Shown piece by piece: positions 59 to 63,523 of a stretch of 64,000 nucleotides of DNA. The position numbers were made by a program, and so were the translations under genes. Source of the DNA: Gari tellinella. Taxonomy: Eukaryota > Mollusca > Bivalvia > Cardiida > Psammobiidae. Below the pieces are notes generated by a model that worked only from the letters and a program-made list of their open reading frames with translations, was not told the DNA's origin and did not search any database. The stretch is taken from positions 34,241,246 to 34,305,245 of the forward strand of contig OV277866.1 of assembly GCA_922989275.2 (NCBI GenBank). The letters run 5' to 3'. Position 1 is the first letter of the stretch. Each line of letters starts with the position of its first letter.

Positions 59-534
59 CCCTTTCATGATCTAATTTATCGTGAGATGTTTTCCCCTTTA
101 CCGCGATATTGTCTGCTTCAATATTGTTGCTCAATATATTATTGTTATACAATACTATTGCAAAATCGTTTGAAATTAAATTCAATGCAGTATGAATGAA
201 TACAATTTAAAACGAGTGTCAAACAGTTCGGATCCTGCTCAAATGCCGCGTAACGCGTGTTTTGGCGTCAGTTACAGTGGAGAATCTGTTATTCTTTCCC
301 GTTTAAACGCAAACGTACGCAAACGCAAAACACTAAAACGTAGAAAAGAACAACTTTTAGACTATTCTGATAATTCATGTTTATCTTGGTGGCAAACAGT
401 TTGGAGCCTGATCAGACGCCGGGTTACCCGGCGTCTGATCTGGCTCCAAACTGTTTGCACTGCAAATAATAGTGTTAGCGTAAACGCGTTTATTGTGAAA
501 GAATAACGTTTGCTCCACTGTATAGTGAAGGCGT
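59..534 (+). mobile_element. Type B MITE interrupted by an A element
   Basis: The left end is ataaCCCTTTCATGATC and the right end is gtgaaggcgTTAA. The internal motif ATTGTCTGCTTCAATATTGTTG and a decayed GGATCCTG hairpin identify type B. An A element (275-520) sits in the right arm at a TA. Confidence 0.7.
275..520 (+). mobile_element. Type A MITE, 246 bp, intact
   Basis: Terminal repeats CAGTGGAGAATC / TTTGCTCCACTG with TA on both sides. The centre is a perfect hairpin, GGAGCCTGATCAGACGCC and its complement around GGGTTACCC. It has no coding capacity. It is inserted into a B element and is therefore younger than it. Confidence 0.9.
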
Positions 535-539
535 TAACT

Positions 540-820
540 CACTAAGATATTGCGTCTTGTAGCAGAGCAACAGCGGCGAATGTGCATTTTTTTTCCATTA
601 AACCTTGCTTAAAAGTTTTTGCGAAATCAATAGTTTCTATTGCAGTCAGTTTGTAGCCAAATCAGATCCGGAGTCTAATCAGTTTCTCAACTGTTTGCTA
701 CGTCTATATACATTGTAAAAACATCTTCATAGTTTTCAAGATGCTGCCATTGATCCACATTATTGAATTCGGTTTAGTTTCTTTTAAATGAGAAATGATA
801 ACGTACATTGTATTCCTCAT
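540..820. other. Intergenic; decayed hairpin remnant
   Basis: Nothing coding is seen. At about 645-700 there is a decayed cassette (cagtttgtagccaaatcag ... ctcaactgtttgct). Confidence 0.4.
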
Positions 821-824
821 TTAA

Positions 825-1087
825 CCCTTTACCCGAGTCTGTTTCTAGTAAAGAAAGTAGGTGACTACTTAAACGCAAACGAAACGCAAACGCAAAGTAC
901 TAAAACGTAGAACATTACAACTTTTGGACAGTTCTGATACTTCATGTTTATCTTGGTGGCAAACAGTTTTGAAACTGATCAGACGCCGGGTTACCCGGCG
1001 TCTGATCTGGATCTATACTGTTTGTAATGTAAATAATAGATTTAGCGTAAACGCGTTTATTGGGAAAGAATAACGTTTACTCCACTG
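825..1087 (+). mobile_element. C/A chimeric MITE
   Basis: It begins as a type C element (TTAA then CCCTTTACC, with GTAGGTGACTACTTAAA) and switches at about 869 to type A sequence (CGCAAACG onward). It continues through the A hairpin to a normal A end, TCCACTG plus TA. The switch point lies in a shared TTAAA. Confidence 0.65.
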
Positions 1088-1089
1088 TA

Positions 1090-1630
1090 GCAGACGAAGT
1101 TAAAATATAATTTTCCATAAATAACGCTTTTCATTCTCGGACACCTTGACGTATTTCAGCCATAAATGAAATTGTTTTTTTTCAAAGAATGGAATTCATT
1201 GCCAAAAAATTCTTGATATTTGCCACCGGTTTACAACCCGACCAGACGCCGAGTAATTGATTTCTTAAGTTCTGAGACAAATTTGAGAATAAAAGTAGTC
1301 GACTTGTTTAAGATTTCTTTCATTGTGAATGAATTGAATTTCCCAGTCCCTGCGGGGAAATTTCCCGTTGTGTGTAACTGGGACCGGTTTAGGAGCCACC
1401 CACAATCATTACATGTGTAATTAGGTTACACTATCTCACGCAACCACTTCACTCCCACTGCCATTGCGTTACCTGGCTTAACTTGTCGTCTGCTTTCATG
1501 TCTCAAATTTATAAATTACATCTTTTGACTAAAGACATATTGAACTGAGAATCAAAAACGCGGCGTCTGATCAAGGTTCAAATTGTTTGCAAATAGACGT
1601 TGTACTCGCGGAAAAGACAATGGAGGAGTT
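1090..1630. other. Intergenic; hairpin fragments only
   Basis: Fragments of the hairpin cassette occur at about 1220-1260 and 1558-1600 (CGGCGTCTGATCAAGG, TTGTTTGCAAA). No gene is seen. Confidence 0.4.
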
Positions 1631-1633
1631 TAA

Positions 1634-2111
1634 CGCTTTGACTCTTAATGACGTCATGAAGCGTATTTGCAAACATTTTTGATTCTGATCAGACACCGCG
1701 TAACGATCAAAATAATTTGCTACTTGTTTTTGAATAACGTCAGTTATACTGCCTTAAATCTAACTCTGAAACGATATTGCAGACAACAATATCGAAGCAG
1801 ATGACAGTATTGCAGTGAAGGGATACACTGGAGAATCTGTTATTCTTTCCCGTTTAAACGCAAACGTACGCAAACGCAAAGCACTAAAACGTAGAAAAGA
1901 ACAACTTTTGGACAATTCTGATAATTCTTGTTTATCTTGGTGGCAAACAGTTTGGATCCTGATCAGACACCGGGTTACCCGGCGTCTGATCTGGCTCCAA
2001 ACCGTTTGCACTGCAAATACTAGTTTTAGCGTAAACGCGTTTATTGGGAAAGAATAACATATTCTCCACTGTAAGGGATAAACACATCACGATAATTTAA
2101 TCACGAAAGGG
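1634..2111 (-). mobile_element. Type B MITE containing an A element
   Basis: TTAA at 1630-1633 and again at 2112-2115. Internal ATTGCAGACAACAATATCGAAGCAG is the reverse of the B motif. An A element occupies 1826-2071 at a TA that matches the insertion site in the B copy at 61879-62363. Confidence 0.75.
1826..2071 (+). mobile_element. Type A MITE, 246 bp
   Basis: TA-flanked, with ends CACTGGAGAATC / ATTCTCCACTG. The central hairpin is near perfect (GATCAGACACC GGGTTACCC). Confidence 0.9.
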
Positions 2112-2177: not shown

Positions 2178-2423
2178 CAGTGGAGAATCTGTTATTCTTT
2201 CCCAATAAACGCGTTTACGCTAAAACTATTATTTGCAGTGCAAACAGTTTGGAGCCAGATCAGACGCCGGGTAACCCGGCGTCTGATCAGGCTCCAAACT
2301 GTTTGCCACCAAGATAAACAAGAATTATCAGAATTGTCCAAAAGTTGTTCTTTTCTACGATTTAGTGTTTTGCGTTTGCGTACGTTTGCGTTTAAACGGG
2401 AAAGAATAACAGATTCTCCACTG
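2178..2423 (-). mobile_element. Type A MITE, 246 bp
   Basis: TA-flanked, perfect CAGTGGAGAATCTGTTATTC terminal repeats and an intact central hairpin. Confidence 0.92.
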
Positions 2424-5990: not shown

Positions 5991-7000
5991 GTCAAGTCAT
6001 AATTTTTAATAAAAGTAGATATGTTTTCATGAAATTGTCAATGATCCTGTTTCAATGAAAGTAATTAATTGAAAAGTAATCAACAAACAAATCATCCTAA
6101 GAATTCTAAAATACTGCACCTTAAAATCATAATTGTTCACTGTTTTTTTGCGCTTGTTTGTGTGTGTTCTTGGTAGAGAATAACATAGCCAACTACAGTA
6201 TGCTATATCTTGAAACAAATCATATTGGATAGTGCGACATAATGATTATGTTAACGGGTTTTCCGATTACTTTCATGTGCATGTACATTTAATACGTTCG
6301 TTTAAAAATATACAGGCTTCTTTATTATGGTAATACAGTTATGAGATAATTAATATTCCAAAAGTGATAAAGGATTGACGAAATGAGCTGTCATGAACAG
6401 AAATTAATTCCTTTCAATTTTGTTCAGGCGGCGATGCATTGCCTGTCTGGTGGATCTTGATTGCGGGGATTGTTCATGATCGCTTTGTAGCAAGTTGCCT
6501 ATGGGTGTGTTGTATTATTCTTGGATATCTTATTTCAGAACAGAATTGCCTTCATATAAGAAATGAACTGATTTACTCGACATTTAAGCAAATTTACCGA
6601 AAGGAAACGATTAGCAAGTTACATCAAATGCGCTATTATGTAGTTGTTTGTTTTTGATTCTTCTCACTGTATGTACATGTACTAAAACATGTATATTACG
6701 TCATGTGAAGTAGACTTTTACTGACAACCCCTGTCTGAAAAGCTGTATAAAATCTGGTATAATAACAATAGTTACAGGCAAAGCGTGTTAAAGAAGAGCC
6801 GAAAAATTGTCATGGTACATATTCGCGACTGTATAAATTGGAACACATTGTGTAAATAAAGGACTAAACCAGAGGCCTAACATGGCGAACATGTATTTAT
6901 GGTGTTATGTTTTTATACAGGTTCCCGCTTTAGTACATGTATGATGATAGCAAAGCAAAAACGTTCCTGTTTACTTCAACAACTTACTCTCACATTGCTT
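5991..7000. other. Intergenic; possible exon remnant at 6429-6500
   Basis: Mostly featureless. After a good acceptor-like tract (tttcaattttgttcag, ending 6428) an open frame reads LPVWWILIAGIV, resembling the start of an integrin-alpha type membrane helix, and then loses resemblance. Too weak to call a gene. At about 6700-6770 TCATGTGAAG ... GACAACCCCTGTCTGAAAAG resembles the tail at 18405-18470. Confidence 0.25.
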
Positions 7001-7003
7001 TAA

Positions 7004-7221
7004 CCCATTTGTGCCCACGATCCCATATATGGGACATAGGCAAACATTGTAGACTCTGATCAGCCGCCGCATTATGCGGCGTCTGATCAGAGTCTACACT
7101 GTTTGCTAATAGGAATTTCAATGTAAAAAAACTGAAAATGAACATTTTGACCAGACATCCCTTTGATAAAAAATGGAATAATCTGATATATACATGGAAG
7201 AATACACTGGGTATAAATAAG
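7004..7221 (+). mobile_element. Type E MITE, about 218 bp
   Basis: Starts ttTAA CCCATTTGTGCCCACG with the palindrome ATCCCATATATGGGA. The hairpin is GTAGACTCTGATCAGCCGCC / GGCGTCTGATCAGAGTCTAC within CAAACA...CTGTTTG. A TTAA follows at 7222-7225. Confidence 0.7.
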
Positions 7222-7299
7222 TTAAGCAATCATCTTCATAAACAATTGCAAACAAGCCATGCTTTAAGTGGTCACACTATTTGTCACTTTTCTGTGTTT

Positions 7300-8412: not shown

Positions 8413-8759
8413 CAGCGTTCCCTCTCTACAACGACACCCATTGGGAGACAACAAATATGTGCGTTGTTCGGAGGGAGTCGTTATAGGGAGGGAACTTGGT
8501 TAACATTTGCAAACAGCTCGAATCCAGATCAGACGCCGCGTTACGCGGCGTCTGATCTTGATTCAAGCTGTTTGTCATTTGTCATTATGTTTTTTCATGT
8601 CAAAATGTCAATTATGTAAGAAAAACAGCAGACAACAATTTGAGGTAGATGATAAAGTATTAGTGCAAGCATAAAACATAATTTTCGTGGGAACAGCGAT
8701 GAATGTCGTTGTAAGGAGGGAGTCGTTGTAAGGAGGGCCGTTGTAGAGAGGGAACGCTG
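8413..8759 (+). mobile_element. Type D MITE, 347 bp, intact
   Basis: TA-flanked, CAGCGTTCCCTCTCTACAAC / GAGAGGGAACGCTG. The central hairpin GAATCCAGATCAGACGCC around GCGTTACGC is perfect. The CAG-starting ends with TA duplication resemble Tc1/pogo-type elements (inference). Confidence 0.85.
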
Positions 8760-12018: not shown

Positions 12019-12021
12019 TCC

Positions 12022-13053: not shown

Positions 13054-13299
13054 CAGTGGAGAATCTGTTATTCTTTCCCAAAAAGCGCGTTTACGCTAAA
13101 ACTATTATTCGCAGTGCAAACAGTTTGGAGCCAGATCAGACGCCGGGTAACCCGGCGTCTGATCAGGCTCTAAACTGTTTGCCACCAAGATAAACAAGAA
13201 TTATCAGATTTGTCCAAAAGTTGTTCTTTTCTACGTTTTAGTGCTTTGCGTTTGCGTACGTTTGCGTTTAAACGGGACAGAATAACAGATTCTCCACTG
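13054..13299 (-). mobile_element. Type A MITE, 246 bp
   Basis: TA-flanked, with perfect outer terminal repeats and an intact hairpin (GGAGCCAGATCAGACGCC). Confidence 0.92.
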
Positions 13300-20645: not shown

Positions 20646-20755
20646 CAACTGACCATATAAATTATACCAATTTTGTTTAACGGTAAACATCTCAACGCTT
20701 TTAAAATTATCTTTCCTAGCAAGTGGTGGTTTTCAATTGTAAAGCTAAAACTACA

Positions 20756-48900: not shown

Positions 48901-51900
48901 TTAAACAATGTATGGACTAATTTACCGTTGTGTATGCTTTCTGTTTTTTCATCAAATGATACGCTGGTATCTTGTTACGCCGGTACATAAATATGCAGCA
49001 AATAACAACTATGTGACAGTGGACAAAAAGACGTTATTCTTTCCCGTTTAAGCGAGTAAGAAATGCAAACACAATGCATTAACACGTAGAAAATGGCAAC
49101 TTGTTCGTATATCTTAAAACTTATTTAAACCTTCTGCAGGCAGTTTATAGCTTGATCTGGTTCCAAACCTTTTTACAATAGAATAATAGTTTAAACGTAA
49201 ACGCATTTATTAAGAAAGAATAACGTCTTCGCCACTGTGAGAAACCGGTCCGTCTTAATACCCCAAACCTCCCCAAACTTATCCAAACCACTTTTAAAAG
49301 CAAGTTTTTATAATTCTAGCAGAGTGAAGCTTAAAGCAGGCTGAAAGTAAAGCAGAATGCGCCTTAAGGCGCATTCTGCTTTACTTTCAACCTGCCTTAA
49401 GAGAATACGTGTCTTCAAAACCAGGAACAGGCTATTAGGATAGTGAATTTATATTTAGAGGTAACTGTGTAAAGTGATCTCAAGTTTTGTTCGAGTTGTT
49501 ACCCTTGAAAAGAAAAACATCGAATATTTAATTTTAAATTAACATTTTTTCATTGTTTTACCTTAAATTTGCCATTTATAAGCTCTTCTTGATTAGATAT
49601 TTAGGACTTTAAGTGGTTTGGATTGTTTTTAAGTGCTTTAGGCAGGTTTGGAAAGGTTTGGGGTGGTTTGGGGTCTTTAGACGGACCCGTAAGAAACCAC
49701 TGTACTGTGGTTAAATCTGTGTGCTACAAATGACGATAGCGTAGTGTAGAAAACATGCTTAAATAGTGTTGTCTTAAAAACGCTTTCACGTTCGATTTGA
49801 ATGTAATATGACTTATGTTTGGATCATGTCTGGTCTTTATTTAAACTGTTGCAAAGGCGACTTTATGCGTCTCTAAAGGTGACAGAGTTCAGAAAACTCC
49901 TGTTTACAAAATATTCCCGTACAATAAAAGATGGCATTACAACCCGCCTAGCAAAGTGTATGCCATGATACCCCCTGCTTGCCAAATTGCCTCTGCATTT
50001 ATATACATAGTTAATATTGTTTTGATATTGTTAACTTTAGTAAACTTTAATATGAGTATCATGCAGTTTAAATCCTAATCAGGCACGTAGTATCTCTGCT
50101 TTTGGCCAAGATCCAAATTGTTGCGAATTTAGAAGTAGTAAGCCTTGGCACAAAGGGGTTACAGTGGAGAATGTGTTATTCTTTCCCAATAAACGCGTTT
50201 ACGCTAAAACTATTATTTGCAGTGCAAACAGTTTGGAGCCATATCAGACGCCGGGTAACCCGGCGTCTGATCAGGCTCCAAACTGTTTGCCACCAAGATA
50301 AACATGAAATATCAGAATTGTCCAAAAGTTGTTCTTTTTTGCGTTTTAGTGCTTTGCGTTTGCGTACGTTTGCGTTCAAACGGGAATGAATAACAGATTC
50401 TCCACTGTACATGTCAGCCCCCGTTTACATGTATAGTACCGTTCATCAAATACCTATTGTCTGAGTGGTCGCTATTATGTAACAGTAGAGAAAAACGTTA
50501 TCCCTTCCCGTGTTGTCGAAGCTAAACGCACACACAATGCACTACAATGCAGAATATATTTAGTTTTTGGAAAATGATCAGCATTTTTCTTTTTCTGGCT
50601 TCTAAATAGTTTTGAGCAGGATCAGGTGCCGGGGTATCCGGCGTCAGATCTGTCCCAAAACATGAACATGTACAAGGGAAATAGCAGTGTTTAACACAAA
50701 ATCATTTATTGGGACAAAATACGGTTTTCCCTACTGAACATTTTCTCAAAGAAATTTAAATTATGTTAAGCAAGCTGATGATACATGTAACTGCAAATAT
50801 TATTTCACCGTCTGGTGAGGTCTTGAATTAATTGTCAGTAGCTAATTTAGTTGTTTTCCGACTGTTATATCATTGTTATATGGTTTTTAGCTCGCCTGTG
50901 CGTAGTACATGGCGAGCTATTGCAATACCCCCGGTGTAGTCGTCGTCGTCGTCGTTGTCGTCGGCGTCGTCGTGAACGGCGTAAACAATTTTAAGAAAAT
51001 GTCTATAACTTCTAAATCCCTTGAGGTATTGCTTTCATAGTTGGTATGTGCGTGTATATGGACAAGACCTTTCCATGTACAGAAAATTGTTGACCCCTGT
51101 GACCTTGACCTTGAACTAAGGGCCTGCGTTTAGGTTTCGAAATCTGCGTTTAGGTTTCGAAAAATGCCTTTAACTTCTATATCCATTAAGGTATTGCTTC
51201 CATAGTCGGTATGTGTGTGTATATAGACAAGACCTTTCCATGCTCAGAAAAATGTAGACCCCTGTGACCTTGACCTTGAACTTAGGGCCTGCGTTTAGGT
51301 TTTGAAATCTGCGTTTAGGTTTCGAAAAATGCCTTTAACTTCTATGTCCCTTGAGGTATTGCTTCAATAGTTGGTATGTGTGTCTATATGGACAAGACCT
51401 TTCCATGCACAGAAAATGTTTGACCCCGGTGACCTTGACCTTGAACTTAGGGCCTGCGTTTAGGTTTCGAAATCTGTGTTTAAGCTTAGAAAAAATGCCT
51501 TTAGCTTCTATGTCCTTTGAGGTATTGCTTTCATAGTTGGTATGTATGTGTATATATATAAGACCTTTCCACGCACAGCAAAACTTAGACCCCTGTGACC
51601 TTGACCTTGAACTTATGGCCTGTGTTTAGGTTTCGAAATCTGCGTTTAGGTTTTGAAAAATGCCTTTAACTTCTATATCCCTTAAGGTATTGCTTCCATA
51701 GTCGGTATGTGTGTGTATGTAGACAAGACCTTTCCATGCTCAGAAAAATTTAGACCCCTGTGACCTTGACCTTGAACTTAGGGCCTGCGTTTAGGTTTCG
51801 AAATCTGCGTTTAGGTTTTGAAAAATGCCTTTAAACTTCTATGTCACTTGAGGTATTACTTCCATAGTTGGTATGTGTGTGTATATGGACAAGACCTTTC

Positions 51901-60900: not shown

Positions 60901-62571
60901 AAGGTAGTTCATATGATATACAGTGGAGAATCTGTTATTCTTTCCCAATAAACGCGTTTACGCAAAAACTATTATTTGCAGTGCAAACAGTTTGGAGCCA
61001 GATCAGACGCCGGGTAACCCGGCGTCTGATCAGGCTCCAAACTGTTTGCCACCAAGATAAACATGTCATATCAGAATTGTCCAAAAGTTGTTCTTTTCTA
61101 CGTTTTAGTGCTTTGCGTTTGCGTACGTTTGCGTTTAAACGGGAAAGAATAACAGATTCTCCACTGTAGATAACATAGCAGTTCCTCATGAGATGTTGTA
61201 TAACGCGGCATCTCACTAGGGTCTACACTGTTTGCCAATGACCACTTTAGTAGACACAAGGCATAGTTGGGTAAATTGAATGATAAGTCAAACTGTAGTC
61301 GCTACTGATGCCTTGTATGTGTCCAATCTGTTTGTTTGGATATCTATAATACTGGTTGAAAATATACATACTATGTATCTTCATACAAGACAAATCATGC
61401 TTAGAAGATCATTGACAGTATCCGTTATTTCCTCATGAAAGTAACTACATGTATATTATTAACTTACTCATCTCTGAAACGTTTAATGGATAGTTGCAGT
61501 TTCCAATTAAGTCAACCTATTTATGGTTATTTAGTGTTGTTCTCTACAATATTTTGCAAAATGAGAAACAATACAAACCCTGATTGGAGGGATCATGTTC
61601 GCTGTTTTGAGGCAGATCTCTGCTTAAAACAAGATGAAAGTAAACAAAACAACATTAAGACGAGTGAAAGAGAGTTGGAACACAGATCAAACGCTGCTTT
61701 ACTCGGCGACTGATCGTGGGTAAAACTGTTTACGAATGTACGCCAAGTCATACTCAATGCTCTAGGGGTATTGAGTTTGCCTCCCTATAACAACTCCCTC
61801 CAAACAATACACGTAATCCTTGTATCGAATTGGGTATTGTTGTAGAGAGGGGTGCTGTATACGATACATTATCTTTAACCCTTTCACTCTCAATGGCGCC
61901 TAAAAGAGCGCGTTTACACACAGTTTGGGGTCCTGATCAGACGCCGCGTAACGCGGTGTCTGATCAGGCGCCAAACTGATTCACACTCTTATTGATATGT
62001 TTAAAGTCATACAACCTTAAATCCACCATTGTACTTGCAGACAACAATACTGAGGTAGACGACAATAATGCGGTGAAGGGGTACAGTGGAGAATCTGTTA
62101 TTCTTTCCCGTTTAAACGCAAACGTACGCAAACGCAAAACACTCAAACGTAGAAAAGAACAACTTTTTGACAATTCTGATAATTCATTTTTATCTTGGTG
62201 GCAAACAGTTTGGAGCCTGATCAGACGCCGGGTTACCCGGCGTCTGATCTGGCTCCAAACCGTTTGTAAAAGAAAAAATAGTTTTAGCGTAAACGCGTTT
62301 ATCGGGAAAGAATAACAGATTCTCCACTGTAAACCTCTTCCGAATAATGTGATCATGAAAGGGTTAATACTCCATGCTTTTTTCAGAGTTTTACACTGGA
62401 GATGAGTCTAGGAACTTTGTGAAGGAGATACAGGCGATGAAGAACCTCGGTCATCATCCCTACATTCTCAGCATCATTGGTTGCTGTTTAACCGGGCCCA
62501 AGTTTTGTCTTGTCCTGGACTTCTGTGCCTTAGGTGATCTCAGGAACTACCTCAGAAAATACAGGGAAAAG
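24859..62571 (+). CDS. Receptor tyrosine kinase with fibronectin III ectodomain (partial gene, 14 exons)
   Basis: I assembled this gene by hand from 14 exons, each with an AG acceptor and GT donor. Splice phases agree at every junction and the exon lengths sum to 1803 nt, exactly 601 codons without a stop. Domains in order: cysteine-containing N-terminal segment (residues 1-52), FN3-like domain 1 (about 53-159), FN3-like 2 (about 160-271), FN3-like 3 (about 272-382), stalk (383-424), transmembrane helix (425-446) with a basic RRRIR stop-transfer, NPIY motif (470-473), kinase glycine loop GEGAFG (506-511), catalytic lysine in AVK (K536), alpha-C glutamate (E553) and hinge (584-590). It should be a single-pass plasma-membrane receptor that phosphorylates tyrosines after ligand binding. 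The N-lobe resembles the FGFR/RET/Tie group (family knowledge), but the ligand class cannot be told. Start codon, signal peptide and the HRD/DFG half of the kinase are not in the assembled exons. The introns are full of MITEs. Confidence 0.85.
25035..25165 (+). mobile_element. Decayed type N fragment
   Basis: ACCTACGCATACAGTGTAGAACC ... ATTGTTTGTCATTTTAG and AATTGGAAATTGGAATTGTTC match the right half of the N element just upstream. Confidence 0.5.
25170..25435. other. Intron sequence
   Basis: No supported feature. Confidence 0.3.
25439..26083 (+). mobile_element. Type P composite bivalve repeat, about 645 bp
   Basis: Opens TTTTAGCTCACCTGAGCC ... GGTGAGCT-like with a GTCGTCNGTCGTC tract and closes CTCAGGTGAGCGAAATATG ... 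GGGGCTCTTGTT. I know this pattern as a very common bivalve repeat; its class is not settled to my knowledge. Open frames inside it are accidental. Confidence 0.7.
26201..26332. repeat. 66-bp tandem duplication
   Basis: Two nearly identical units (26201-26266, 26267-26332) starting ATTGTTCTTTTAATTTGC. Confidence 0.8.
26347..26703 (-). mobile_element. Type D MITE, 357 bp, intact
   Basis: TA-flanked; CAGCGCTCCCTCTCTACAAC / GAGAGGGAACGCTG. Perfect hairpin GAATCCAGATCAGACGCC around GCGTTACGC. Confidence 0.85.
26706..27340 (-). mobile_element. Type M MITE disrupted by a type E element
   Basis: The left M end (CTGTAAAAGCCCTGTATTAC) abuts the D element. The right M part at 27275-27335 (TTTAAGCTGTCGCCTGTC, TCAATTAGCCGTCTT) is the complement of the intact M at 20756. 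Between them lies an E element placed in the M hairpin loop. Confidence 0.6.
26817..27242 (+). mobile_element. Type E MITE with internal 179-bp tandem duplication
   Basis: Begins CTAA CCCATTTGTGCCCAGAGG and ends ATATGGGATCGTGTGCACAG. The stretch from AAATAAAAGTAAACG to ATCATTGATAAAAC occurs twice, offset 179 bp, so the duplication includes flanking M sequence. A perfect foldback (AAAATGAGAATG ... around GGCC) lies at 27064-27122 and the E hairpin at 27143-27207. Confidence 0.65.
27750..29013 (+). mobile_element. Type Q element with central 180-bp tandem repeats
   Basis: Starts AGCTCGCCTTTTCG with a (GTGAGC)n tract at 27786-27832 and ends CAGGCGAGCATCAGG. Inside are four units, at about 27845, 28027, 28672 and 28852, with the motif TTTGGACGGGTTGTTTTAAA and period 180-182 bp once the 465-bp insert R is removed. 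The layout (short ends, microsatellite, tandem core) matches the bivalve 'pearl'/tandem-repeat MITE type (inference). Confidence 0.6.
28138..28604 (+). mobile_element. Type R bivalve repeat nested in Q
   Basis: TATGCCCCCGGCATCGACAG at the left pairs loosely with GCCACCGGGGGCATAAG at the right. It contains GTCCGTCCGTCC and two copies of TTTTGACCTTGACCTTGAC. It interrupts the second Q unit. Confidence 0.65.
29079..29142. repeat. Hairpin cassette fragment
   Basis: AACAGTTTGGATTCTTATCAG ... CAGGCTCCGAACTGTTTG: only the cassette is recognisable, with no flanking MITE ends. Confidence 0.5.
29145..29475. other. Intron sequence
   Basis: No supported feature. Confidence 0.3.
29480..29905. mobile_element. 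Two abutting A elements in opposite orientation
   Basis: The + copy 29480-29706 (CAGTGGATAAGACG, perfect hairpin) loses its right end at TTATTGGGAGA. It runs directly into a decayed - copy (GTGGACAATACTTC ... GATCAGGCTCTC), 29707-29905. Confidence 0.65.
29906..30119. other. Intron sequence
   Basis: No supported feature. Confidence 0.3.
30120..30326 (+). mobile_element. Type A MITE with one hairpin arm deleted
   Basis: TAGTTATTCTTTCCTGTTTA at the left and TTTTCTACACTG at the right. The centre reads AAAACAG directly followed by TCTGATCTGGCTCC, so the first arm is missing. Confidence 0.65.
30543..30782 (+). mobile_element. Type K MITE, 240 bp
   Basis: Ends TGAGCCGCGCCATGACAAAA / TTTTGTTATGGCACGGCTCA, then TTGCATTGCA / TTGCAATGCA. 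The hairpin GTAGTTCAAGACCAACCACC around GCGTCATGGACG sits in GCAAACAG...CTGTTTG: same frame as A/B/D but different arm sequence. Confidence 0.75.
30890..31573. other. Intron with decayed B hairpin and L foldback
   Basis: GGAACCTGATTGGACGCC ... AATCAGGATCAAAA at about 30925-30982 is a B-type remnant. 31240-31375 (GGGTCTGAAATAG ... TTATAACCTTAGACC) is a decayed L foldback. The rest is featureless. Confidence 0.45.
31574..31646 (+). CDS. RTK exon 2: cysteine-containing segment
   Basis: The acceptor follows a strong pyrimidine tract (tttctttttctcag) and the donor is GTAAAT. The 73 nt run from phase 0 to phase 1 and encode residues 29-52, starting ENQTCIESCSLEANYA. Joined to exon 1 it gives the pattern CPNKACKN-ENQTCIESC, reminiscent of small disulfide-rich modules that precede FN3 domains, though I cannot name the fold. 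The intron before it is 6.6 kb and could hide another phase-0 exon. Confidence 0.7.
31650..32690. other. Intron; decayed A remnant at 32080-32235
   Basis: GGATCCAGATCAGACACTAGG near 32160 and a weak cassette near 31810. No coding exon is recognised. Confidence 0.4.
32700..32873 (+). mobile_element. Type C MITE, left part and hairpin arm missing
   Basis: GAAAGAATAGCATAATGCGCC is followed at once by TGCTTTAAGCTATTATATGC, so one hairpin arm is lost. The right part ends ATAAAAAGGGTTAA. Confidence 0.6.
32928..33118 (+). CDS. RTK exon 3: first half of FN3 domain 1
   Basis: The acceptor is gcatgtttcag and the donor is GTAAGC. The 191 nt (phase 1 to 0) encode residues 53-116. The segment starts with a proline-containing linker (DLVVPKPG), then a beta-strand with the FN3-type tryptophan (NLYLTWTTA) and ends PGPWTALEP, the usual run-up to the second sheet of an FN3 domain. 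The split aspartate codon (g from exon 2 plus at) confirms the phase. Confidence 0.8.
33122..33490. other. Intron; decayed B-like hairpin near 33190-33270
   Basis: GCAAACATTTTTCATCCTAATCAGGCGCC ... ACAATTTGCTCGACA. Nothing else. Confidence 0.35.
33497..34750 (-). mobile_element. Dead mariner-family transposon, 1254 bp, with a B element inside
   Basis: TA-flanked inverted ends CGAGGGTTGTTATTTAAGTT (33497) and AACTTAAATAACAACCCTCG (ending 34750). On the minus strand 33751-33805 still reads RWIKHHEKCI, stop, LTGSYHEK, which fits the conserved C-terminal RW-x-KCI-x-L-x-G-x-Y motif of mariner transposases. No long frame survives, so it is inactive. A B MITE (33973-34210) accounts for about 240 bp of the length. 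Confidence 0.8.
33973..34210 (+). mobile_element. Type B MITE, 238 bp, nested in the mariner
   Basis: CCCTTTCACCGCC / GACGGTGAAAGGG with TTAA on the right and GTAA on the left. Hairpin TATCCTGATTAGACGCC around GCGTAACGC. Confidence 0.85.
34755..35000. other. Intron; decayed A hairpin near 34870-34935
   Basis: TTGGTTGCGAACATTTCCGACC ... GATCAGACC. Nothing else is seen before the exon 4 acceptor. Confidence 0.35.
35004..35133 (+). CDS. RTK exon 4: second half of FN3 domain 1
   Basis: The acceptor is ttcatacgtag and the donor is GTAGGTAT. The 130 nt (phase 0 to 1) encode residues 117-159. The reading contains KISGLSCSTLYQFRVTPVS, a textbook FN3 pattern (hydrophobic-x-GL, T-x-Y-x-F-x-V), then SEWIMTYN. 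The frame is short and lacks a methionine, so simple ORF calling misses it. Joined to exon 3 it completes one FN3 domain of about 100 residues. Confidence 0.8.
35137..35780. other. Intron; decayed A remnant at 35150-35320
   Basis: TTTCCAATAACCGCATAAAG and TTGTTTGGGACTAGATCATACGCC identify an old A copy. A weak cassette lies near 35650. Confidence 0.4.
35785..36030 (+). mobile_element. Type A MITE, 246 bp, near consensus
   Basis: TA-flanked, near-perfect 26-bp terminal repeats (CAGTGGAGAATCTGTTATTC...). Perfect hairpin apart from the usual GATCTGG / CCTGATC asymmetry. Confidence 0.93.
36052..36100. repeat. Isolated hairpin
   Basis: CTTGACCAGAAGGCCCCTTA ... GCCCTCTGGTCAGG: a cassette-like palindrome with GACCAGA arms and no recognisable MITE around it. 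Confidence 0.5.
36214..36419 (-). mobile_element. Type H MITE
   Basis: CTCTTCACTTCCATGGTGTC at the left; CTCGGGGTAAGGAAGTCAA at the right. Hairpin GGATCCTGACCAGAAGTTGC / GCAACGTCTGATCAGGATCC. Confidence 0.6.
36543..36641 (+). CDS. RTK exon 5: start of FN3-like domain 2
   Basis: The acceptor is ctcctctgttttag and the donor is GTATGATT, weaker than most in this gene. The 99 nt (phase 1 to 1) encode residues 160-192 and contain PPASFKVTG and VITVEWKQRK, the A and B strands of an FN3 domain with its tryptophan. Being a multiple of three with equal phases, the exon could be skipped without a frameshift, although that would break the domain. Confidence 0.75.
36780..36985 (+). mobile_element. Type I-like MITE, decayed
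   Basis: TTTTAACCCTTATGACG left end, CTGTCTGCTTATCTC, and a decayed hairpin near 36925-36972. Confidence 0.45.
36990..37222. mobile_element. Type F MITE, 233 bp, near-perfect palindrome
   Basis: Ends CAGGGGCCCGTTTTACTAAA / TTTAGTAAAACGGGCCCCTG, then ACAACTTACGCAAA / TTGCGTAAGTTGT. The centre is GCAAACAGCAAATAGCCAGA through GAGGACGCGC and back. The AAACAG...CTGTTTG frame is shared with A, B and D although the ends are unrelated. Confidence 0.8.
37420..38580. mobile_element. Unclassified DNA transposon with TIRs, 1161 bp
   Basis: Inverted ends CACTGAGGGGATTTTCTAA (37420-37438) and TTAGAAAATCCCTTCAGTG (38562-38580), one mismatch in 19, flanked by TA on both sides. The interior has two open frames (90 codons at 37548, 68 codons at 37985) without recognisable motifs. 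It is locally more GC-rich than its surroundings, so it may hold decayed transposase sequence. Confidence 0.6.
38620..38905 (+). mobile_element. Type C hairpin fragment and A right-end fragment
   Basis: AAGGCGCATTCTGCTTAC at 38640-38660 belongs to C. GCCTAGTATGGCGCG ... TTTATTGCGAAAGCATAACG at 38810-38905 is an A remnant. Confidence 0.4.
38958..39022 (+). CDS. RTK exon 6: middle of FN3-like domain 2
   Basis: The acceptor is tgtttctgtttcag and the donor is GTAAGTTT. The short 65-nt exon (phase 1 to 0) encodes residues 193-214, reading NSSCNYKIFWFYEQ then TVEQVEIK. NSS is a potential N-glycosylation site. The hydrophobic/aromatic alternation suits the C strand of an FN3 domain. Confidence 0.7.
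39357..39593 (-). mobile_element. Type A MITE nested in another A, 237 bp
   Basis: TA on both sides, ends CAGTGGAGAAAACG / CGTTTTCTCCACTG. The second hairpin arm is damaged (GGATAACCTGAAACC). Confidence 0.8.
39685..40045 (-). mobile_element. Type D MITE, 361 bp
   Basis: TA then CAGCGTTCCCTCTCTACAAC; right end ATAGAGGGAACACTG. Hairpin GAATCTAGATCAGACGCC around GCGTTACGC. Confidence 0.85.
40334..40549 (-). mobile_element. Type A MITE lacking one hairpin arm, 216 bp
   Basis: TA-flanked with intact ends. GCAGTGCAAA joins directly to CCCGGCGTCTGATCAGGC, a clean 30-bp loss of the first arm. Confidence 0.88.
40774..41132 (+). mobile_element. Type D MITE, 359 bp
   Basis: TA then CAATGCCCGCCTCTACAACG; right end GTAGGGAGGGAACACAG plus TA. 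The hairpin is shortened at the loop (GATCAGACGCAAATTCTGATC). Confidence 0.75.
41145..41345 (+). mobile_element. Decayed type A MITE
   Basis: ATAAACGAAACGCAAGGC ... TTGAAGTCTGATTAGACGCC ... CTGACCTAACTTCAG. Ends just before exon 7. Confidence 0.45.
41361..41532 (+). CDS. RTK exon 7: second half of FN3-like domain 2
   Basis: The acceptor is atatcgtttcag and the donor is GTAAGTAA. The 172 nt (phase 0 to 1) encode residues 215-271. YNLTDLEFNMNYNIIVHS is the FN3 pattern leading into the F strand, with glycosylation sequons NLT and later NHT. Three cysteines lie in or near the exon end. A type-K MITE begins about 17 bp after the donor. Confidence 0.8.
41549..42019 (+). mobile_element. Type K MITE interrupted by a B element
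   Basis: Left end GAGTCGTGCCATGAGAAAACC, TTGCATTGTAAAC. The hairpin return arm GCGGCAGCTGGTCTTAAT ... CACTGTTTGACA and right TGTTGCAATGCAATATGTC follow after the B insert at 41602-41841. Confidence 0.6.
41602..41841 (+). mobile_element. Type B MITE, 240 bp, TTAA on both sides
   Basis: TTAA 41598-41601 and 41842-41845; CCCTTTCACCGCC / TGCGGTGAAAGGG. Hairpin TTGATCCTGAACAGACGCC around GCGTTACGC. Confidence 0.88.
42060..42270 (+). mobile_element. Decayed type C MITE
   Basis: AGTTGACCACATCAAGCAGG, GTAAAGCAGAATGCGCC, then a damaged return arm and AAAAGGCGTATTTATGAAGG. Confidence 0.55.
42275..42648. other. Intron; decayed A hairpin at 42505-42575
   Basis: GACTCCGGATAAGACACCGCC AGG ... GATCAGGCTCCGAACTG. 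Otherwise featureless. Confidence 0.4.
42654..42890 (+). mobile_element. Type B MITE, about 237 bp
   Basis: TTAA then CCCTTTCGTGATAAAATT, TTATCGTCCGCTTCAATATT, hairpin TTGATCCTGACCAGACGCC around GCGTGATGC. The right end has decayed (GAAAGTGGAAATAAT). It stops about 31 bp before exon 8. Confidence 0.75.
42922..43139 (+). CDS. RTK exon 8: first half of FN3 domain 3
   Basis: The acceptor is tactgttgaag and the donor is GTAAGAG. The 218 nt (phase 1 to 0) encode residues 272-344. The exon opens RPLKPRNVNITVLTV and includes DILLHWEPPVG and ITRYFLTYRKLPP, a clear FN3 first sheet with the core tryptophan and the W-x-PP motif, plus sequons NIT and NGS. A type-B MITE ends about 31 bp upstream, so the acceptor region is very close to inserted DNA. 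Confidence 0.85.
43380..43568 (-). mobile_element. Decayed type A MITE, right end replaced by C
   Basis: AAAGCCAGATCAGACGCCG TATAACA CGGCATCTGATCAGGCTT, then TTGTTCGCGTTTAA where the C element starts. Confidence 0.5.
43573..43815 (+). mobile_element. Type C MITE, 243 bp, TTAA on both sides
   Basis: TTAA 43569-43572 and 43816-43819; CCCTTTACCTGATAG / ATGGGGAAAGGG. Perfect hairpin GTAAAGCAGAATGTGCC / GGCACATTCTGCTTTAC with compensating changes on both arms. Ends 49 bp before exon 9. Confidence 0.88.
43865..43979 (+). CDS. RTK exon 9: second half of FN3 domain 3
   Basis: The acceptor is ttattatatttgcag and the donor is GTGAGTAT. The 115 nt (phase 0 to 1) encode residues 345-382. The reading has LNNIHNHNKYVFTLAAVSEG, the F-strand Y-x-F-x-L-x-A pattern of FN3, ending FSYFF. 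A complete type-C MITE with TTAA duplications ends 49 bp upstream. Confidence 0.8.
44072..44690 (+). mobile_element. Type E MITE split by a G element
   Basis: GTAACCCATTTGGGTC at 44071-44086 continues after the G insert as CTACGTTCCTATATATAGGACATAGG and the hairpin GTAGACAGTGTAGACGC ... AAAGTCTACAATGTTTGC. Confidence 0.6.
44087..44545. mobile_element. Type G MITE, 459 bp, 12-bp target duplication
   Basis: Ends GATCCGTCTAAAGACCCCAA / TTGGGGTCTTTAGACGGAC. CCCATTTGGGTC flanks both sides (44075-44086, 44546-44557). It carries a C-type hairpin (GTAAAGCAGAATGAGCC / GGCGCATTCTGCTTTAC). Long TIRs with 10-12-bp duplications suggest a Mutator-type MITE (inference). Confidence 0.75.
44822..45040 (+). 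mobile_element. Decayed type C MITE
   Basis: TATGACAACTTAAGCAGATT, GTAAAGCAGAATGTGCC, CTCTGTTTTACTTTAAGCC, ATAAATTAAATAGGTC. Confidence 0.55.
45041..45665. other. Intron; AT-rich low complexity at 45353-45487
   Basis: Interrupted ATA/AAT/AAC triplets at 45353-45487. The rest is featureless. Confidence 0.5.
45669..45719 (+). CDS. RTK exon 10: stalk mini-exon
   Basis: The acceptor is attcattacag and the donor is GTGAGATA. The 51 nt (phase 1 to 1) encode 17 residues, DVKESGSAITNDSSGNI, a polar serine-rich stalk with sequon NDS. An alternative donor 9 nt earlier (GTAATATT after 45710) keeps the same phase and would remove three residues. Support is weaker than for domain exons because the sequence is short and low in complexity. 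Confidence 0.55.
45830..46075 (-). mobile_element. Type A MITE, diverged
   Basis: GATGAGAAGTCGTTATTTTT left; AGTGTCTTCTCCACTG right. Hairpin GGAGCCCGATCAGCCACC with mutated arms. Confidence 0.65.
46170..46415 (+). mobile_element. Type A MITE, 246 bp
   Basis: TA-flanked, near-perfect TIRs, hairpin with one change (GATCATACGCC). Confidence 0.92.
46575..46826 (+). mobile_element. Decayed type C MITE
   Basis: CATAGTCTGTTTCTAGTTTT GAAGACGGGTGACTACTTAAA, AGGCAGAATGCGCCTTAATG, ending TAAAGGGATAAA. Confidence 0.6.
47645..48200. other. Intron with hairpin remnants
   Basis: TTTTGATCTATGTCAGATGCC ... GATCTGGATTCAAACCG (about 47698-47760) and GATCATTGATCAGGATCAGC (about 48047). No gene is seen. Confidence 0.4.
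48204..48574 (+). mobile_element. Type D MITE, 371 bp
   Basis: TA then CAGTGCTCCCTCTCTACAAC; hairpin diverged (CGATCAAGTTCAGTGGCCGC). Right end GTAGGGAGAGATCATTG. Confidence 0.75.
48645..48871 (-). mobile_element. Decayed type A MITE
   Basis: GGGTGGGAAAGCATCATTC ... CCCGATAAACCCG left; TTCAAACGGGAAAGAATAAT ... CCAGTG right. The hairpin is mostly lost. Confidence 0.55.
49017..49237 (+). mobile_element. Type A MITE, hairpin largely deleted
   Basis: CAGTGGACAAAAAGACG left; AATAACGTCTTCGCCACTG right. The centre is GGCAGTTTATAGCTTGATCTGG only. A G element sits directly at its right end. Confidence 0.7.
49247..49687. mobile_element. Type G MITE, 441 bp
   Basis: GGTCCGTCTTAATACCCCAA / GGGGTCTTTAGACGGACC. 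GTGAGAAACC before and GTAAGAAACC after are a 10-bp duplication with one change. It carries a perfect C-type hairpin, GTAAAGCAGAATGCGCC TTAA GGCGCATTCTGC. Confidence 0.75.
49700..50160. other. Intron; decayed B-like scraps
   Basis: GATTTGAATGTAATATG ... GGCGACTTTATGCGTCTC around 49790-49880 may be old B sequence. No gene is seen. Confidence 0.3.
50162..50407 (-). mobile_element. Type A MITE, 246 bp
   Basis: TA-flanked, near-perfect TIRs (CAGTGGAGAATGTGTT left), hairpin with one change (GGAGCCATATCAGACGCC). Confidence 0.92.
50483..50738 (+). mobile_element. Decayed type A MITE
   Basis: CAGTAGAGAAAAACGTTATC left, TTTCCCTACTG right. Hairpin GCAGGATCAGGTGCCGGGGTATCC. Confidence 0.6.
50891..55545 (+). 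repeat. Composite element with a 165-bp tandem array of about 27 units
   Basis: Begins AGCTCGCCTGTGCGTAGTAC ATGGCGAGCT with a (GTC)n tract (50937-50975) and ends TTGCGAGCTTTGTTGTCTCT. Between them are monomers of 165 bp with landmarks GGTATTGCTTCCATAG, ACAAGACCTTTCCATGC, TGACCTTGACCTTGAAC and two copies of TGCGTTTAGGTTTCGAAA. Units are most alike in the middle and diverge and change length toward the right end (from about 54300). The open frames on both strands come from the 165 (= 3 x 55) period and are not genes. Confidence 0.9.
51624..53290. repeat. Higher-order duplication, two 825-bp units of five monomers
   Basis: Sequence from about 51624 recurs 825 bp (5 x 165) downstream up to about 53290, including rare variants such as TTTAAACTTCTATGTCACTT (51831 and 52656) and GAACTCAGGGCCTGTATTTA (52106 and 52931). 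Confidence 0.8.
55550..55953. other. Intron; A fragment at 55795-55880
   Basis: TTTTAATTCTGATCAGGCTC TAAACTG and a decayed A end. Otherwise featureless. Confidence 0.4.
55958..56201 (+). mobile_element. Type B MITE, 244 bp
   Basis: TTAA then CCCTTTCGCTGCC; right end GAGTTAAAGGG then TTTAA. Hairpin TTGATCTTGATCAGATGCC around GCGTTACGT. Confidence 0.8.
56224..56469 (-). mobile_element. Type A MITE, 246 bp
   Basis: TA-flanked, ends CAGTGGAGAAAACG / CCGATTCTCCACTG. The second hairpin arm lacks GATC (GGCGTCTGAAGGCTC). It starts 22 bp after the B element. Confidence 0.9.
56472..57619. other. Intron before exon 11
   Basis: AT-rich. I see no repeat with recognisable ends and no additional exon. 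The pyrimidine-rich acceptor of exon 11 closes it. Confidence 0.4.
57620..57673 (+). CDS. RTK exon 11: stalk mini-exon
   Basis: The acceptor is tgtattgccctttag and the donor is GTAAGTTA. The 54 nt (phase 1 to 1) encode 18 residues, GLRTYVNETGTIKDVGEM, with sequon NET. It lies 11.9 kb downstream of exon 10 and 0.85 kb upstream of the transmembrane exon. Good splice signals and the matching phase support it, but there is no recognisable domain, so it could be an optional cassette. Confidence 0.55.
57800..58026. mobile_element. Type F-like foldback element
   Basis: GGGACCCGTTTAATAAAACA at the left and TGTTTATGAAACGGGCCCC at the right, with internal arms ATCTCTATCTAATCCTGTCT / AGGATTAGATAGAG and a second palindrome TACGACAACATTTGTCGTA. 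Here the centre is not the AAACAG cassette. Confidence 0.6.
58028..58520. other. Intron before the transmembrane exon
   Basis: No repeat is recognised. The open frame at 58448-58520 continues upstream of exon 12 but lacks a better acceptor. Confidence 0.35.
58521..58669 (+). CDS. RTK exon 12: transmembrane helix and juxtamembrane segment
   Basis: The acceptor follows tattcgttcttcttgtag and the donor is GTAAGTTT. The 149 nt (phase 1 to 0) encode residues 418-467. After LPLSVPE comes a run of about 22 hydrophobic residues (LVAIIIVPLVLLLAILLVVL), then KLMRRRIR, a positive-inside stop-transfer signal that puts the kinase in the cytoplasm. The longer open frame upstream (from 58448) also reads hydrophobic residues, but the acceptor chosen here has the better pyrimidine tract and the right phase. 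Confidence 0.8.
58754..58959 (+). mobile_element. Type A MITE with palindrome removed, 206 bp
   Basis: CAGCCGAGAAAACG left, TTTTCTCAGCTG right, TA flanks. The centre is GGGGCCTGATCTGGCTCC, i.e. the inner hairpin has been cleanly lost. Confidence 0.75.
59035..59115. repeat. Hairpin cassette remnant
   Basis: AATAGTTTGGACCTACC ... CAATCCAAACTGTTTGAAAC. Confidence 0.35.
59213..59452 (-). mobile_element. Type B MITE, 240 bp, TTAA on both sides
   Basis: TTAA 59209-59212 and 59453-59456; CCCATTCACTCTCAATG left, TGATCATGAATGGG right. Hairpin GGGTCCTGATCAGACGCC. Confidence 0.85.
59618..59833 (+). mobile_element. Decayed type A MITE next to exon 13
   Basis: TACAGTGGAGAATACG left, CACCATCTCCATTAC right. 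The hairpin is nearly gone (GTTGGGTTTTGACCTGTTTCC). Its right end is about 25 bp from the exon 13 acceptor. Confidence 0.6.
59860..60076 (+). CDS. RTK exon 13: NPxY motif and kinase glycine loop
   Basis: The acceptor is ctcttctatatcag and the donor is GTGATAAC. The 217 nt (phase 0 to 1) encode residues 468-539. The exon starts EMNPIYEGMP (an NPxY-type site), then runs into the kinase N-lobe: DFISVIGEGAFGKVVKAEF (glycine loop) and RIVAVKMLK with the ATP-binding lysine. A loop of about 12 charged residues between strands 2 and 3 (HQRPGDRGHKTG) resembles that of RET/FGFR-type kinases. Confidence 0.9.
60080..60472. other. Intron between kinase exons
   Basis: No feature is recognised. Confidence 0.35.
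60477..60718 (-). mobile_element. Type A MITE, diverged
   Basis: CAGTGGAGCAAACG left; GTTTAAACGGCAAGTAAAAT ... TTCTCTTTATTA right. Hairpin GGAGCAAGATTAGACGTC. Confidence 0.75.
60921..61166 (-). mobile_element. Type A MITE, 246 bp, near consensus
   Basis: TA-flanked, perfect outer TIRs, perfect inner palindrome. Confidence 0.93.
61175..61250. repeat. Type E/N hairpin fragment
   Basis: CCTCATGAGATGTTGTATAAC ... CACTAGGGTCTACACTGTTTGCC. Confidence 0.45.
61255..61635. other. Intron
   Basis: No feature is recognised. The open frame from 61435 has no motif. Confidence 0.3.
61640..61857 (-). mobile_element. Type D MITE, left part lost
   Basis: GACGAGTGAAAGAGAGTTGG, hairpin ACACAGATCAAACGCTGC, CCTCCCTATAACAACTCCCTCC and right end TTGTAGAGAGGGGTGCTG plus TA. 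Confidence 0.6.
61879..62363 (-). mobile_element. Type B MITE containing an A element, abutting exon 14
   Basis: TTAA 61875-61878 and 62364-62367; CCCTTTCACTCTCAATG left, GTGATCATGAAAGGG right. B length without the insert and one TA is 237 bp. Hairpin GGGTCCTGATCAGACGCC. Only 19 bp separate its TTAA from exon 14. Confidence 0.9.
62084..62329 (+). mobile_element. Type A MITE, 246 bp, nested in B
   Basis: TA-flanked, near-consensus. Inserted at the B-element TA in GTGAAGGGGTA, the same site as at 1826. Confidence 0.93.
62387..62571 (+). CDS. RTK exon 14: kinase alpha-C helix to hinge
   Basis: The acceptor is ccatgcttttttcag and the donor is GTAAATAC. The 185 nt (phase 1 to 0) encode residues 540-601. 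It contains RNFVKEIQAMKNLGHHPYI (alpha-C with the salt-bridge glutamate E553), the next strand SIIGCC, and the hinge LVLDFCALGDLRNYLRKY. The L-G-D-L-R-N-Y-L pattern is typical of tyrosine kinases of the FGFR/Tie/RET group. The rest of the kinase should follow beyond position 64000. A B/A composite MITE ends only about 20 bp before the exon. Confidence 0.9.
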
Positions 62572-62619
62572 GTAAATACTACAATGGAGAAAACGGTATT
62601 CCTTATCACTTTCTTCCCT

Positions 62620-62790
62620 GAAACCTCAAATGGACAATTCTAGTTTTCAATTTAGTATAGTCCATTTTTACTTTATAGGGTTGAACTTTACAATATATGT
62701 CAAAATAACAAACAGTGTAGACCCTGATCAGATGGCTCCTTATGGACATGTGTACTCCTAACAGGTGCGTGACTAGGGTTCAACGAGTTA
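62620..62790 (-). mobile_element. Decayed type N MITE
   Basis: AACAAACAGTGTAGACCCTG ATCAGATGGCTCC, then GGTGCGTGACTAGGGTTCAA CGAGTTAA, the complement of the N left end. Confidence 0.55.
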
Positions 62791-62799
62791 AAGTTTAAA

Positions 62800-63003
62800 C
62801 AAAAATAGAATCAAATGCATTACACTTAATGTTGAACATTACATCTGACTGAATATATTTACGGTTCATTTGTGTCTGGGTGGCGAACATTTTTAAGCCT
62901 GATCAGACGCCGGGTTTACCGGCGTCTGGTCTTGCTTCAAGCTGTTTGCTTTGAAAAATAATCATTTAGCACAAACGCGTTTATTTGCTATAAAATAAAT
63001 AAG
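62800..63003 (+). mobile_element. Decayed type A MITE
   Basis: TCTGGGTGGCGAACATTTTT AAGCCTGATCAGACGCC around GGGTTTACC, then CACAAACGCGTTTATTTGC. Ends lost. Confidence 0.55.
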
Positions 63004-63277
63004 GAAATATGGTGATGTCAAACTGTCTTTACTCTATTCAGGAAGATTTTAATTCTTCACCTAAAACGGAATGAGATGGAAACATAATGCAACATGTGCA
63101 AATAAAACAATATAAAAGTAAAAGGACTGTTTAAATAAAGTCTGAGTAAACCAATCATCCCACTCCTGCTTAGCAAAAACACAAACAGATTGAAATCGAA
63201 AGGCTATTACCGGAAAGAGACACAAAGAAATGACGAACATACGTCCATGTGTACGCAGAAAGAAAAGCACGGATGTA

Positions 63278-63523
63278 CAGTGGGGAAAACGTTATTCTTT
63301 CCCGTTTAAACGCAAACGTACGCAAACGCATTGCAATAAAACGTAGACAATTACATCTCATTGACAATCCTGACCTTTTATTTTAATCTGAGAGGCAAAC
63401 AGTTTGGAGCCTGATCAGACGCCGGGTAACCCGGCGTCTGATCTGGCTCCAAACCTTTTGCAGTGGAAATAAACGTTTTAGCGTAAACGCGTTTATTGGG
63501 AAAGAATAACACATTCTCCACTG
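63278..63523 (+). mobile_element. Type A MITE, 246 bp
   Basis: TA-flanked, CAGTGGGGAAAACG / CACATTCTCCACTG, hairpin intact with GGGTAACCC. Confidence 0.92.

Follow-up and report, generated by a model that had tools for sequence, protein, structure and literature searches.

Short hairpins in the window and in the genome

The DNA analyzed here, referred to as the window, is a 64-kb stretch of the bivalve Gari tellinella (contig OV277866.1, positions 34,241,246 to 34,305,245), which lies on a contig labelled C11 of a 1.598-Gb genome. It is populated by miniature inverted-repeat transposable elements (MITEs) of ~200-360 bp, inside which sit near-perfect hairpins of ~65-72 nt. The initial annotation of this DNA had proposed that one hairpin cassette is shared by many MITE families with unrelated ends, and had counted several dozen copies. 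That count held: 41 non-overlapping near-perfect inverted repeats (loop 0-8, score of at least 16) were found across the window. One of them (2575-2882) was a long pairing between two inverted family-A copies, and the remaining 40 were short hairpins. At a score of at least 20, there were 171 hairpins in 288 kb, with 40 in the window, and none in each of three first-order Markov simulations of the window.

A genome sample of twenty 10-kb stretches at fixed positions (L009-L028; 200 kb) held 129 hairpins of up to 131 nt, with arms of 29-37 in 110 of them. Under the same scoring the window held 39, of which 36 had arms of 29-37. A further 50 kb contained 20 hairpins (no length filter), and two of its five stretches had none. 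Since the hairpin counts in fixed-position stretches are similar, the window can be considered typical of the genome. Genome-wide, GATCAGACGCCG occurred 273,870 + 273,607 times (control, 1 + 2), the exact two-armed core was present in 173,052 copies (control, 0), and 74,055 family-A elements of 246-276 bp had a perfect 10-base sequence at each end. By extrapolation, hairpins of all classes in the genome would be of the order of a million. No match to the core was found in viral contigs, a collection from which records of this genome were possibly excluded, and among the papers listed by the literature searches, with coverage of subscription journals mostly lacking, nothing described such a hairpin cassette.

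Anatomy of the hairpin-bearing elements

Families were delimited by community clustering of the flanks of palindromes of up to 131 nt, and the labels used (B, I, X and others) are our own and not those of the initial annotation. Of the families described there, A, D, F, K and several with TTAA were found again, each with its stated ends; B, H, I and N were not matched singly, and E was not identified. The first hairpin lineage reads CAAACAG...CTGTTTG. A search of the window for AAACAG-N15-40-CTGTTT gave no more than 4 matches, with 0.4 expected; the two words are in fact ~51 bases apart, which explains the low number. A second hairpin class, which the initial annotation did not mention and which lacks AAACAG, reads CTTAAAGCAGG...CCTGCTTTAAG and is found in families X, X2 and X3, plus the related P. 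The S, Q and R hairpins, likewise unmentioned there, are of similar size, and their sequence is unrelated to the other classes.

Elements that share related internal hairpins differ in their target duplication, as the initial annotation had noted; duplications of TA, of TTAA and of 6 bp were seen. A family-A element of 246 bp consists of TA, CAGTGGAGAA... (117 bp in all), a 67-nt hairpin, 62 bp, ...TTCTCCACTG and TA. The 67-nt palindrome, placed between flanks of 117 and 62 bp, does not reach the element ends, so that A is not of the foldback type. The hairpin-carrying D elements (347-361 bp) and the P elements (203-206 bp, one of 218 bp) are TA-flanked. TA preceded 117 of 167 A ends, 8 of 9 D ends and 17 of 18 P ends; it was present on both sides of 11 of the 12 complete 246-bp A elements of the window, of 4 of 6 hairpin-bearing D elements and of 7 of 8 P-ended elements, and was also seen at the ends of family Q.

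The consensuses of X, I, Hh and B17 have TTAA at both ends, B-type elements likewise end in TTAA, and 45 hairpin-bearing elements were recovered by a search that requires TTAA. When end words alone were used, TTAA was observed in 4 of 6 Hh ends (CTAA in the other 2) and in 12 of 33 CCCTTTCACC ends (TTTA in 7). The X2 duplication is 6 bp long and, as read from the sequences, was exact in 5 of 6 elements (~256 bp); a TTTAAG duplication was found in 2 of 7 S elements. The ends of F and K are of other types, and no clear target duplication was seen there. In several families the hairpin is located roughly 40-63 bp from one element end. Six example hairpins, folded as single-stranded DNA with DNA energies only, gave -31 to -43 kcal/mol (z -11 to -17).

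Some individual loci deserve mention. Two S-type elements (L029:2210-2402 and 2580-2777) have the same TTTAAG 6-bp duplication, and their GCTTTAAG context resembles the X hairpin base. A perfect 42-nt palindrome (L013:7293-7334) looks like the B23 hairpin with its tip symmetrically removed (compare L012:1846-1912), and L011:3767-3964 is a perfect inverted repeat with 96-base arms and a 6-base loop.

Flank relationships between families

Family flanks were compared in 514 pairs, reading outward from the hairpin, with 200 shuffles each, and the results given are those of the 45 best pairs. B5, B22, B26, an older A copy, K and F were represented by single hand-typed copies, and B3 was left out; the first base of B26 was wrong and the K_L, F_L and K_R flanks had one extra first base, which hardly affects local alignment. 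Among the TTAA families B1, B2, B5, B17, B22 and B26, 14 of the 15 pairs were among the 45 best (z 3.9-42), and judging from these flanks the six are diverged relatives. The initial annotation had considered common descent of whole elements unlikely, and had named homologous flanks as the sign of simple divergence; for these six families its view has to be abandoned. For many of the pairs compared, the flanks turned out to be related.

The flank of D matched that of B5, a TTAA copy, with the hairpins in register (2-106 against 2-109 of 110; z 21, 0/200 shuffles). The match spans from the hairpin edge to the TTAA end of B5, and ~80 further D bases there are without counterpart. D also matched B1 (z 12.7, 0/200 shuffles). 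X2 and X were identical at 38 of 42 bases, in a match that ends 5 bp before the TTAA end of X (z 21, 0/200 shuffles), and P shared with X the 18 bp adjoining the hairpin (z 4.9, 0/200 shuffles). X and B2 shared 39 bp at the TTAA end (z 11.6, 0/200 shuffles), which connects the two hairpin classes as well. Between I and Hh, and between these two and B, the matches were only weak (z 4-5).

Since D (TA) and X2 (6-bp) enclose one TTAA-element arm beside the hairpin, capture, one of the explanations offered initially, gains support. From the flank alignments, the sharing of hairpins among the B-type TTAA families, D, X2 and P is explained by common descent plus capture of TTAA elements. The flanks of K and F were in none of the 45 best of the 514 pairs; capture is unsupported there, and the sharing is unexplained beyond the hairpin itself.

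Conservation and pairing of the hairpin

For family A, 62 copies were found by their flanks alone, and profiles were built from 38 hairpin-ascertained copies. Variants were divided into singletons, which are mostly private mutations, and those shared by at least two copies, which are mostly inherited; CpG sites were left out. The singleton rate of A was 0.0164 in the hairpin and 0.008-0.019 elsewhere (ratio 1.12; 0.80-1.47), whereas the shared-variant rate was 0.034 in the hairpin and 0.063-0.150 elsewhere (ratio 0.31; bootstrap 95% 0.26-0.37). The terminal repeats, too, had more shared variants than the hairpin. Across six families ascertained by their flanks, private mutations were about equally frequent in hairpin and flanks, and shared ones were rarer in the hairpin, with p<0.03 in five of the six (Fisher test, shared vs singleton: A, 3.6e-4; X, 1.9e-9, n=47; B1, 0.004, n=22; I, 0.026, n=16; D, 0.028, n=17). 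Hold-out DNA contained only four A copies, with differences of 8.0% in the hairpin vs 15.5%, and three of them had clearly fewer in the hairpin.

Pairing was analyzed in 49 of 51 hairpins found by their frame (at most 1 mismatch in 14 frame bases) and without the A motif; L018:259 and L025:4667, which are not in-register hairpins, were dropped, and the flanks of two of the 49 (window 960 and 60538) place them in family A. Two-sided changes were detected in 18 of 32 pairs, amounting to 97 cells against 29.7 in shuffled sets (0/500) and 23-30 in slid ones; one-sided changes of the G-U type accounted for 47 cells. Stem-base pairs 1-7 showed no two-sided changes, and 18 inner pairs have them.

In the arms of the 38 hairpin-found A copies, 42 changes were one-sided and 1 was two-sided (0.4 expected). 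From this excess we conclude that the arms are not routinely corrected against each other in A. In other families the two-sided changes, as a fraction of changed pairs and with the compensatory ones in parentheses, were 32/190 (25) in X, 18/93 (11) in B1, 8/47 (8) in I, 7/85 (4) in D and 1/27 (1) in X2, counts that pool inherited and private changes. As far as these sequence comparisons go, the hairpin appears to be maintained in amplifying lineages and its pairing to be preserved across families.

Stem deletions, nested insertions and a piggyBac partner

A-ended elements of 165-195 bp, that is 51-81 bp shorter than A, numbered 1,765, and not all of them are hairpin losses. In approximately 16 of 50 listed short elements, the deletion had removed only the stem, so that GCAAAC[A/T]GTTTGC or a similar sequence remained, and these elements belonged to more than one subfamily (by eye). 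An exact search for the GCAAAC[A/T]GTTTGC junction in one subfamily gave 239 cases, with both junction types. Deletion between short direct repeats at the stem base is expected from replication slippage across an extruded hairpin. The recurrent stem deletion suggests that the hairpin folds as DNA; it does not show a role in transposition.

Elements were also found inside one another. In a P element (L025:4488-4938) the hairpin tip CTCC-TTAA-GGAG holds a complete I element (251/251) with TTAA on both sides, and another P element (L024:5781-6191) contains an X-like TTAA element (by eye). At L019:103-353 an element is inserted at the tip TTAA of an imperfect X hairpin, and at C17:23,676,000 a 3.1-kb open-frame piggyBac lies at the TTAA of an X hairpin base (by eye).

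The piggyBac transposase domain (PF13843) gave 86 matches in the genome, many of them fragments, and the first 19 listed were without internal stop. Several matches on C3/C4, on C1/C4/C5/C17 and on C10/C12/C14 had identical scores and no internal stops, which suggests recent activity. Two of four equal-score places were read: they were 99.4% identical over 3.1 kb, both with open frames, and no internal palindrome with a score of at least 14 was present in either copy. Hence, the hairpin is not part of that element. The C17 copy, for which both ends were read, is bounded by TTAA and has a terminal repeat CCCTTTCGGCGCCA and a 465-aa ATG frame; its ends are of the TTAACCCTTTC type, and it reads TTAACCCTTTCGGCGCCA...TGGCGCCGAAAGGGTTAA. 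CCCTTTC is common to the B and X ends and to this piggyBac, the match to the MITE ends being 7 bases for B and X, and fewer for I and Hh.

Possible roles of the hairpin

We favor, as somewhat probable, the explanation that amplifying elements have retained a captured hairpin under selection, probably because as folded DNA it helps mobilization. Other MITEs would serve as targets for TTAA MITEs, with TTAA words within hairpins among the insertion sites; the outer ends could then mobilize the composite element, and the flanks would erode. The hairpin would persist since elements able to fold it multiply better. Folding would most likely matter at the DNA level: a hairpin or cruciform extruded at the centre of a short, stiff element could ease the pairing of the ends or help during replication, and such a benefit would be independent of which transposase acts. 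Selection for the hairpin had been among the initial suggestions, and the lower shared variants support it at the level of amplifying lineages. We also entertain, tentatively, a stronger form, in which the hairpin is a transferable mobility part: any acquiring MITE, of the TTAA, TA or 6-bp type, would gain amplification, with the folded centre joining the ends or easing replication-linked excision. If so, the hairpin, and not the ends, would be the most conserved part of very different elements.

Several observations weigh against selection on a captured, folded hairpin. The mobilization function is inferred. Variants shared in the flanks come from a mixture of subfamilies and include recurrent mutations, so that flank change is overestimated; the X set of 47 copies probably includes related subfamilies, X singletons were 1.5-fold commoner in the hairpin than in the flanks, and X2 alone was not significant (p 0.087, n=7). 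Covariation within X, measured on centred hairpins of length 72 (other lengths, 71, 73, 76 and a few more, being left out), was modest: 6 of 34 pairs, a number reached by 38 of 500 shuffles, and 17 cells against 11.2 (9/500). In family A, the consensus stem keeps one T-T mismatch, 9 of the 62 copies had lost more than 5 nt of the hairpin, and one of the four hold-out copies was about equally changed throughout (13/67 in the hairpin vs 33/162). Single TA-ended elements without the hairpin exist, of P type (L018:9257-9460) and D type (L033:1694-2061). None of the 45 best of the 514 pairs linked the flanks of the young A consensus to a TTAA element. One older A copy matched B22 over 51 bp in register (z 5.7), which is only a hint, because the copy was picked for its look-alike first bases and also matches family I (z 4.4, 1/200 shuffles); a link of family A to TTAA elements by capture would accordingly be weak. 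Finally, TTAA insertions did not significantly prefer the TTAA of hairpins (1 of 45 sites with a score of at least 10, vs 36 of 3,279 controls); the L025 and L024 nested cases are missing from those 45 sites because their hairpins are broken.

The functional alternatives can share the history of capture with the favored explanation, and the probabilities overlap. It is unlikely, though far from negligible, that the hairpin has no function and hitchhikes with successful elements, its conservation reflecting few source copies and its arms being copied by template switching. Capture alone would explain the sharing, some of the two-sided changes in X are CpG transitions, and two-sided changes are not rare in X, B1, I and D. 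Hitchhiking would, however, not be expected to yield similar singleton rates and lower shared rates in the same copies; the 42 to 1 excess in the A arms indicates that correction between arms is infrequent there; and the shortened elements are a small minority (1,765 of 165-195 bp vs 74,055 of 246-276 bp). We regard as rather unlikely a sequence-specific binding role, in which a transposase domain or a host factor would recognize the palindrome in double-stranded form, chiefly at its stem base CAAACAG/CTGTTTG, and folding would be a by-product. The invariance of stem-base pairs 1-7 to two-sided change, unlike the 18 inner pairs, and the position of the hairpin near one end in several families are consistent with it. 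So are the cysteine-rich domains of piggyBac and piggyBat, which bind a palindrome near the transposon tip (PMC11707139). A palindrome with arms of ~33 bp is, however, far longer than such sites, pairing is preserved although the arms vary in sequence from family to family, and the hairpin also occurs in elements with TA and 6-bp duplications.

A function as RNA, with transcribed hairpins yielding double-stranded RNA or small RNAs that protect or regulate the elements, seems quite improbable to us. Near-perfect hairpins of 65-72 nt would suit it, and the covariation fits RNA as well as DNA. Against it, no Rfam match was obtained in the window at gathering scores, which is weak evidence, since undescribed hairpins would be missed, and the 97 two-sided cells outnumber the 47 one-sided cells of the G-U type, which is not decisive. 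Very unlikely, in our judgment, is a hairpin that is itself a mobile module jumping into MITEs, although this had been proposed initially. The same hairpin class does occur with unrelated ends, and no flank homology was found for K or F; but the shared sequence continues beyond the edge of the hairpin, reaching the TTAA end or its vicinity in D and X2 and extending 18 bp in P, and no flipped hairpin was seen by eye among the 62 flank-oriented family-A copies.

Other features of the window

The elements and hairpins located in the window are compiled in Table 1. A tandem array with a ~165-bp unit and ~28 copies, 60-100% alike to a reference copy, extends from 50919 to 55456, and a long low-complexity stretch rich in GTA is located at 23972-24474. 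On the minus strand, 10822-12024 is a 401-aa open frame with a reverse-transcriptase match just below the Pfam cut-off; its C-terminal part resembles a Penelope-type GIY-YIG element. Four of 40 listed open frames were scanned, with reverse-transcriptase matches in three (one below the cut-off) and none in one.

Table 1. Hairpin-bearing elements of the window, with target-site bases where given
Feature	Position	Strand	Hairpin
Family A MITE, 246 bp, TA/TA	275..520	+	392-458
Family A MITE, 246 bp, TA/TA	1826..2071	+	1943-2009
Family A MITE, 246 bp, TA/TA	2178..2423	-	2240-2306
Family Hh TTAA MITE, CCCATTTGTGCCCA-type end	7000..7225	.	7040-7106
Family D MITE, TA/TA, CAGCGTTCCC ends, captured TTAA-element arm	8413..8759	-	8510-8574
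Family A MITE, TA/TA	13054..13299	-	13116-13182
Family A MITE, TA/TA	17163..17408	-	17225-17291
Family X hairpin (CTTAAAGCAGG class, TTAA MITE)	18521..18592	-	
Family P MITE, 205 bp, TA/TA, CAGTAAAACCTCTC ends	20754..20958	-	20823-20890
Family A MITE, 246 bp, TA/TC	21485..21730	-	21548-21612
Family D MITE, TG/TA	23623..23981	-	23720-23784
Family I TTAA MITE	24547..24796	+	24628-24687
Family D MITE, TA/TA	26347..26703	+	26542-26606
Two adjacent hairpins in one family-Hh element	27057..27207	.	27057-27124 (sequence unrelated to AAACAG class) and 27141-27207
Family K element, TGAGCCG ends	30543..30781	.	30580-30648
Family A MITE, TA/TA	35785..36030	+	35902-35968
Family F element, CAGGGGCCCGTTTTA ends	36991..37222	.	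37069-37137
Family D MITE, TA/TT	39685..40045	+	39885-39947
Family B2 TTAA MITE, CCCTTTCACCG end	41598..41845	+	41742-41804
Family X TTAA MITE hairpin	43618..43689	-	
Family A MITE, TA/TA	46170..46415	+	46287-46353
Family X3 hairpin	49330..49401	+	
Family A MITE, TA/TA	50162..50407	-	50224-50290
Family A MITE, TA/TA	60921..61166	-	60983-61049
Family A MITE, TA/TA	62084..62329	+	62202-62266
Family A MITE, TA/TA	63278..63523	+	63395-63461

Significance and comparison with known systems

Why one MITE reaches tens of thousands of copies, and its relatives do not, is an open question. This genome is a natural experiment, in which the hairpin is present, mutated or deleted in defined subfamilies with very many copies, and a role of internal structure as a driver of MITE amplification is therefore directly testable. 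It also provides examples in which one MITE has inserted into another and is carried along by it, a situation that can lead repeat classification astray.

MITEs of the piggyBac type likewise have TTAA ends, and the genome holds matches to the piggyBac transposase domain; the piggyBac read here is without a palindrome of the hairpin kind, unlike the hairpin MITEs, and piggyBac MITEs are not known to be defined by a constrained hairpin at their centre. The TA ends of A, D, P and Q are shared with MITEs of the Tc1/mariner-pogo type, from which D differs in carrying the hairpin plus a TTAA-element arm. For Stowaway, internal MITE sequence, and not the ends alone, reportedly affects mobility (the 2009 work of Yang, 'Tuned for transposition'). 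That case concerns one family, whereas here the hairpin is common to several transposon types.

The M1 and M2 foldback or palindromic MITEs of pithoviruses (PMC10664404) are likewise abundant and palindromic, with a putative TA target and possible multimers, and their inverted repeats of 54 and 47 bp enclose a centre of 37 bp and extend to the element ends. In the elements described here, unlike M1 and M2, a palindrome of 65-72 nt occupies the centre, the flanks are not palindromic, and the terminal repeats are short. The REP/REPIN hairpins are prokaryotic and depend on a different enzymology. These bacterial hairpins (PMC3116915) are palindromes amplified genome-wide, as are those of G. tellinella.

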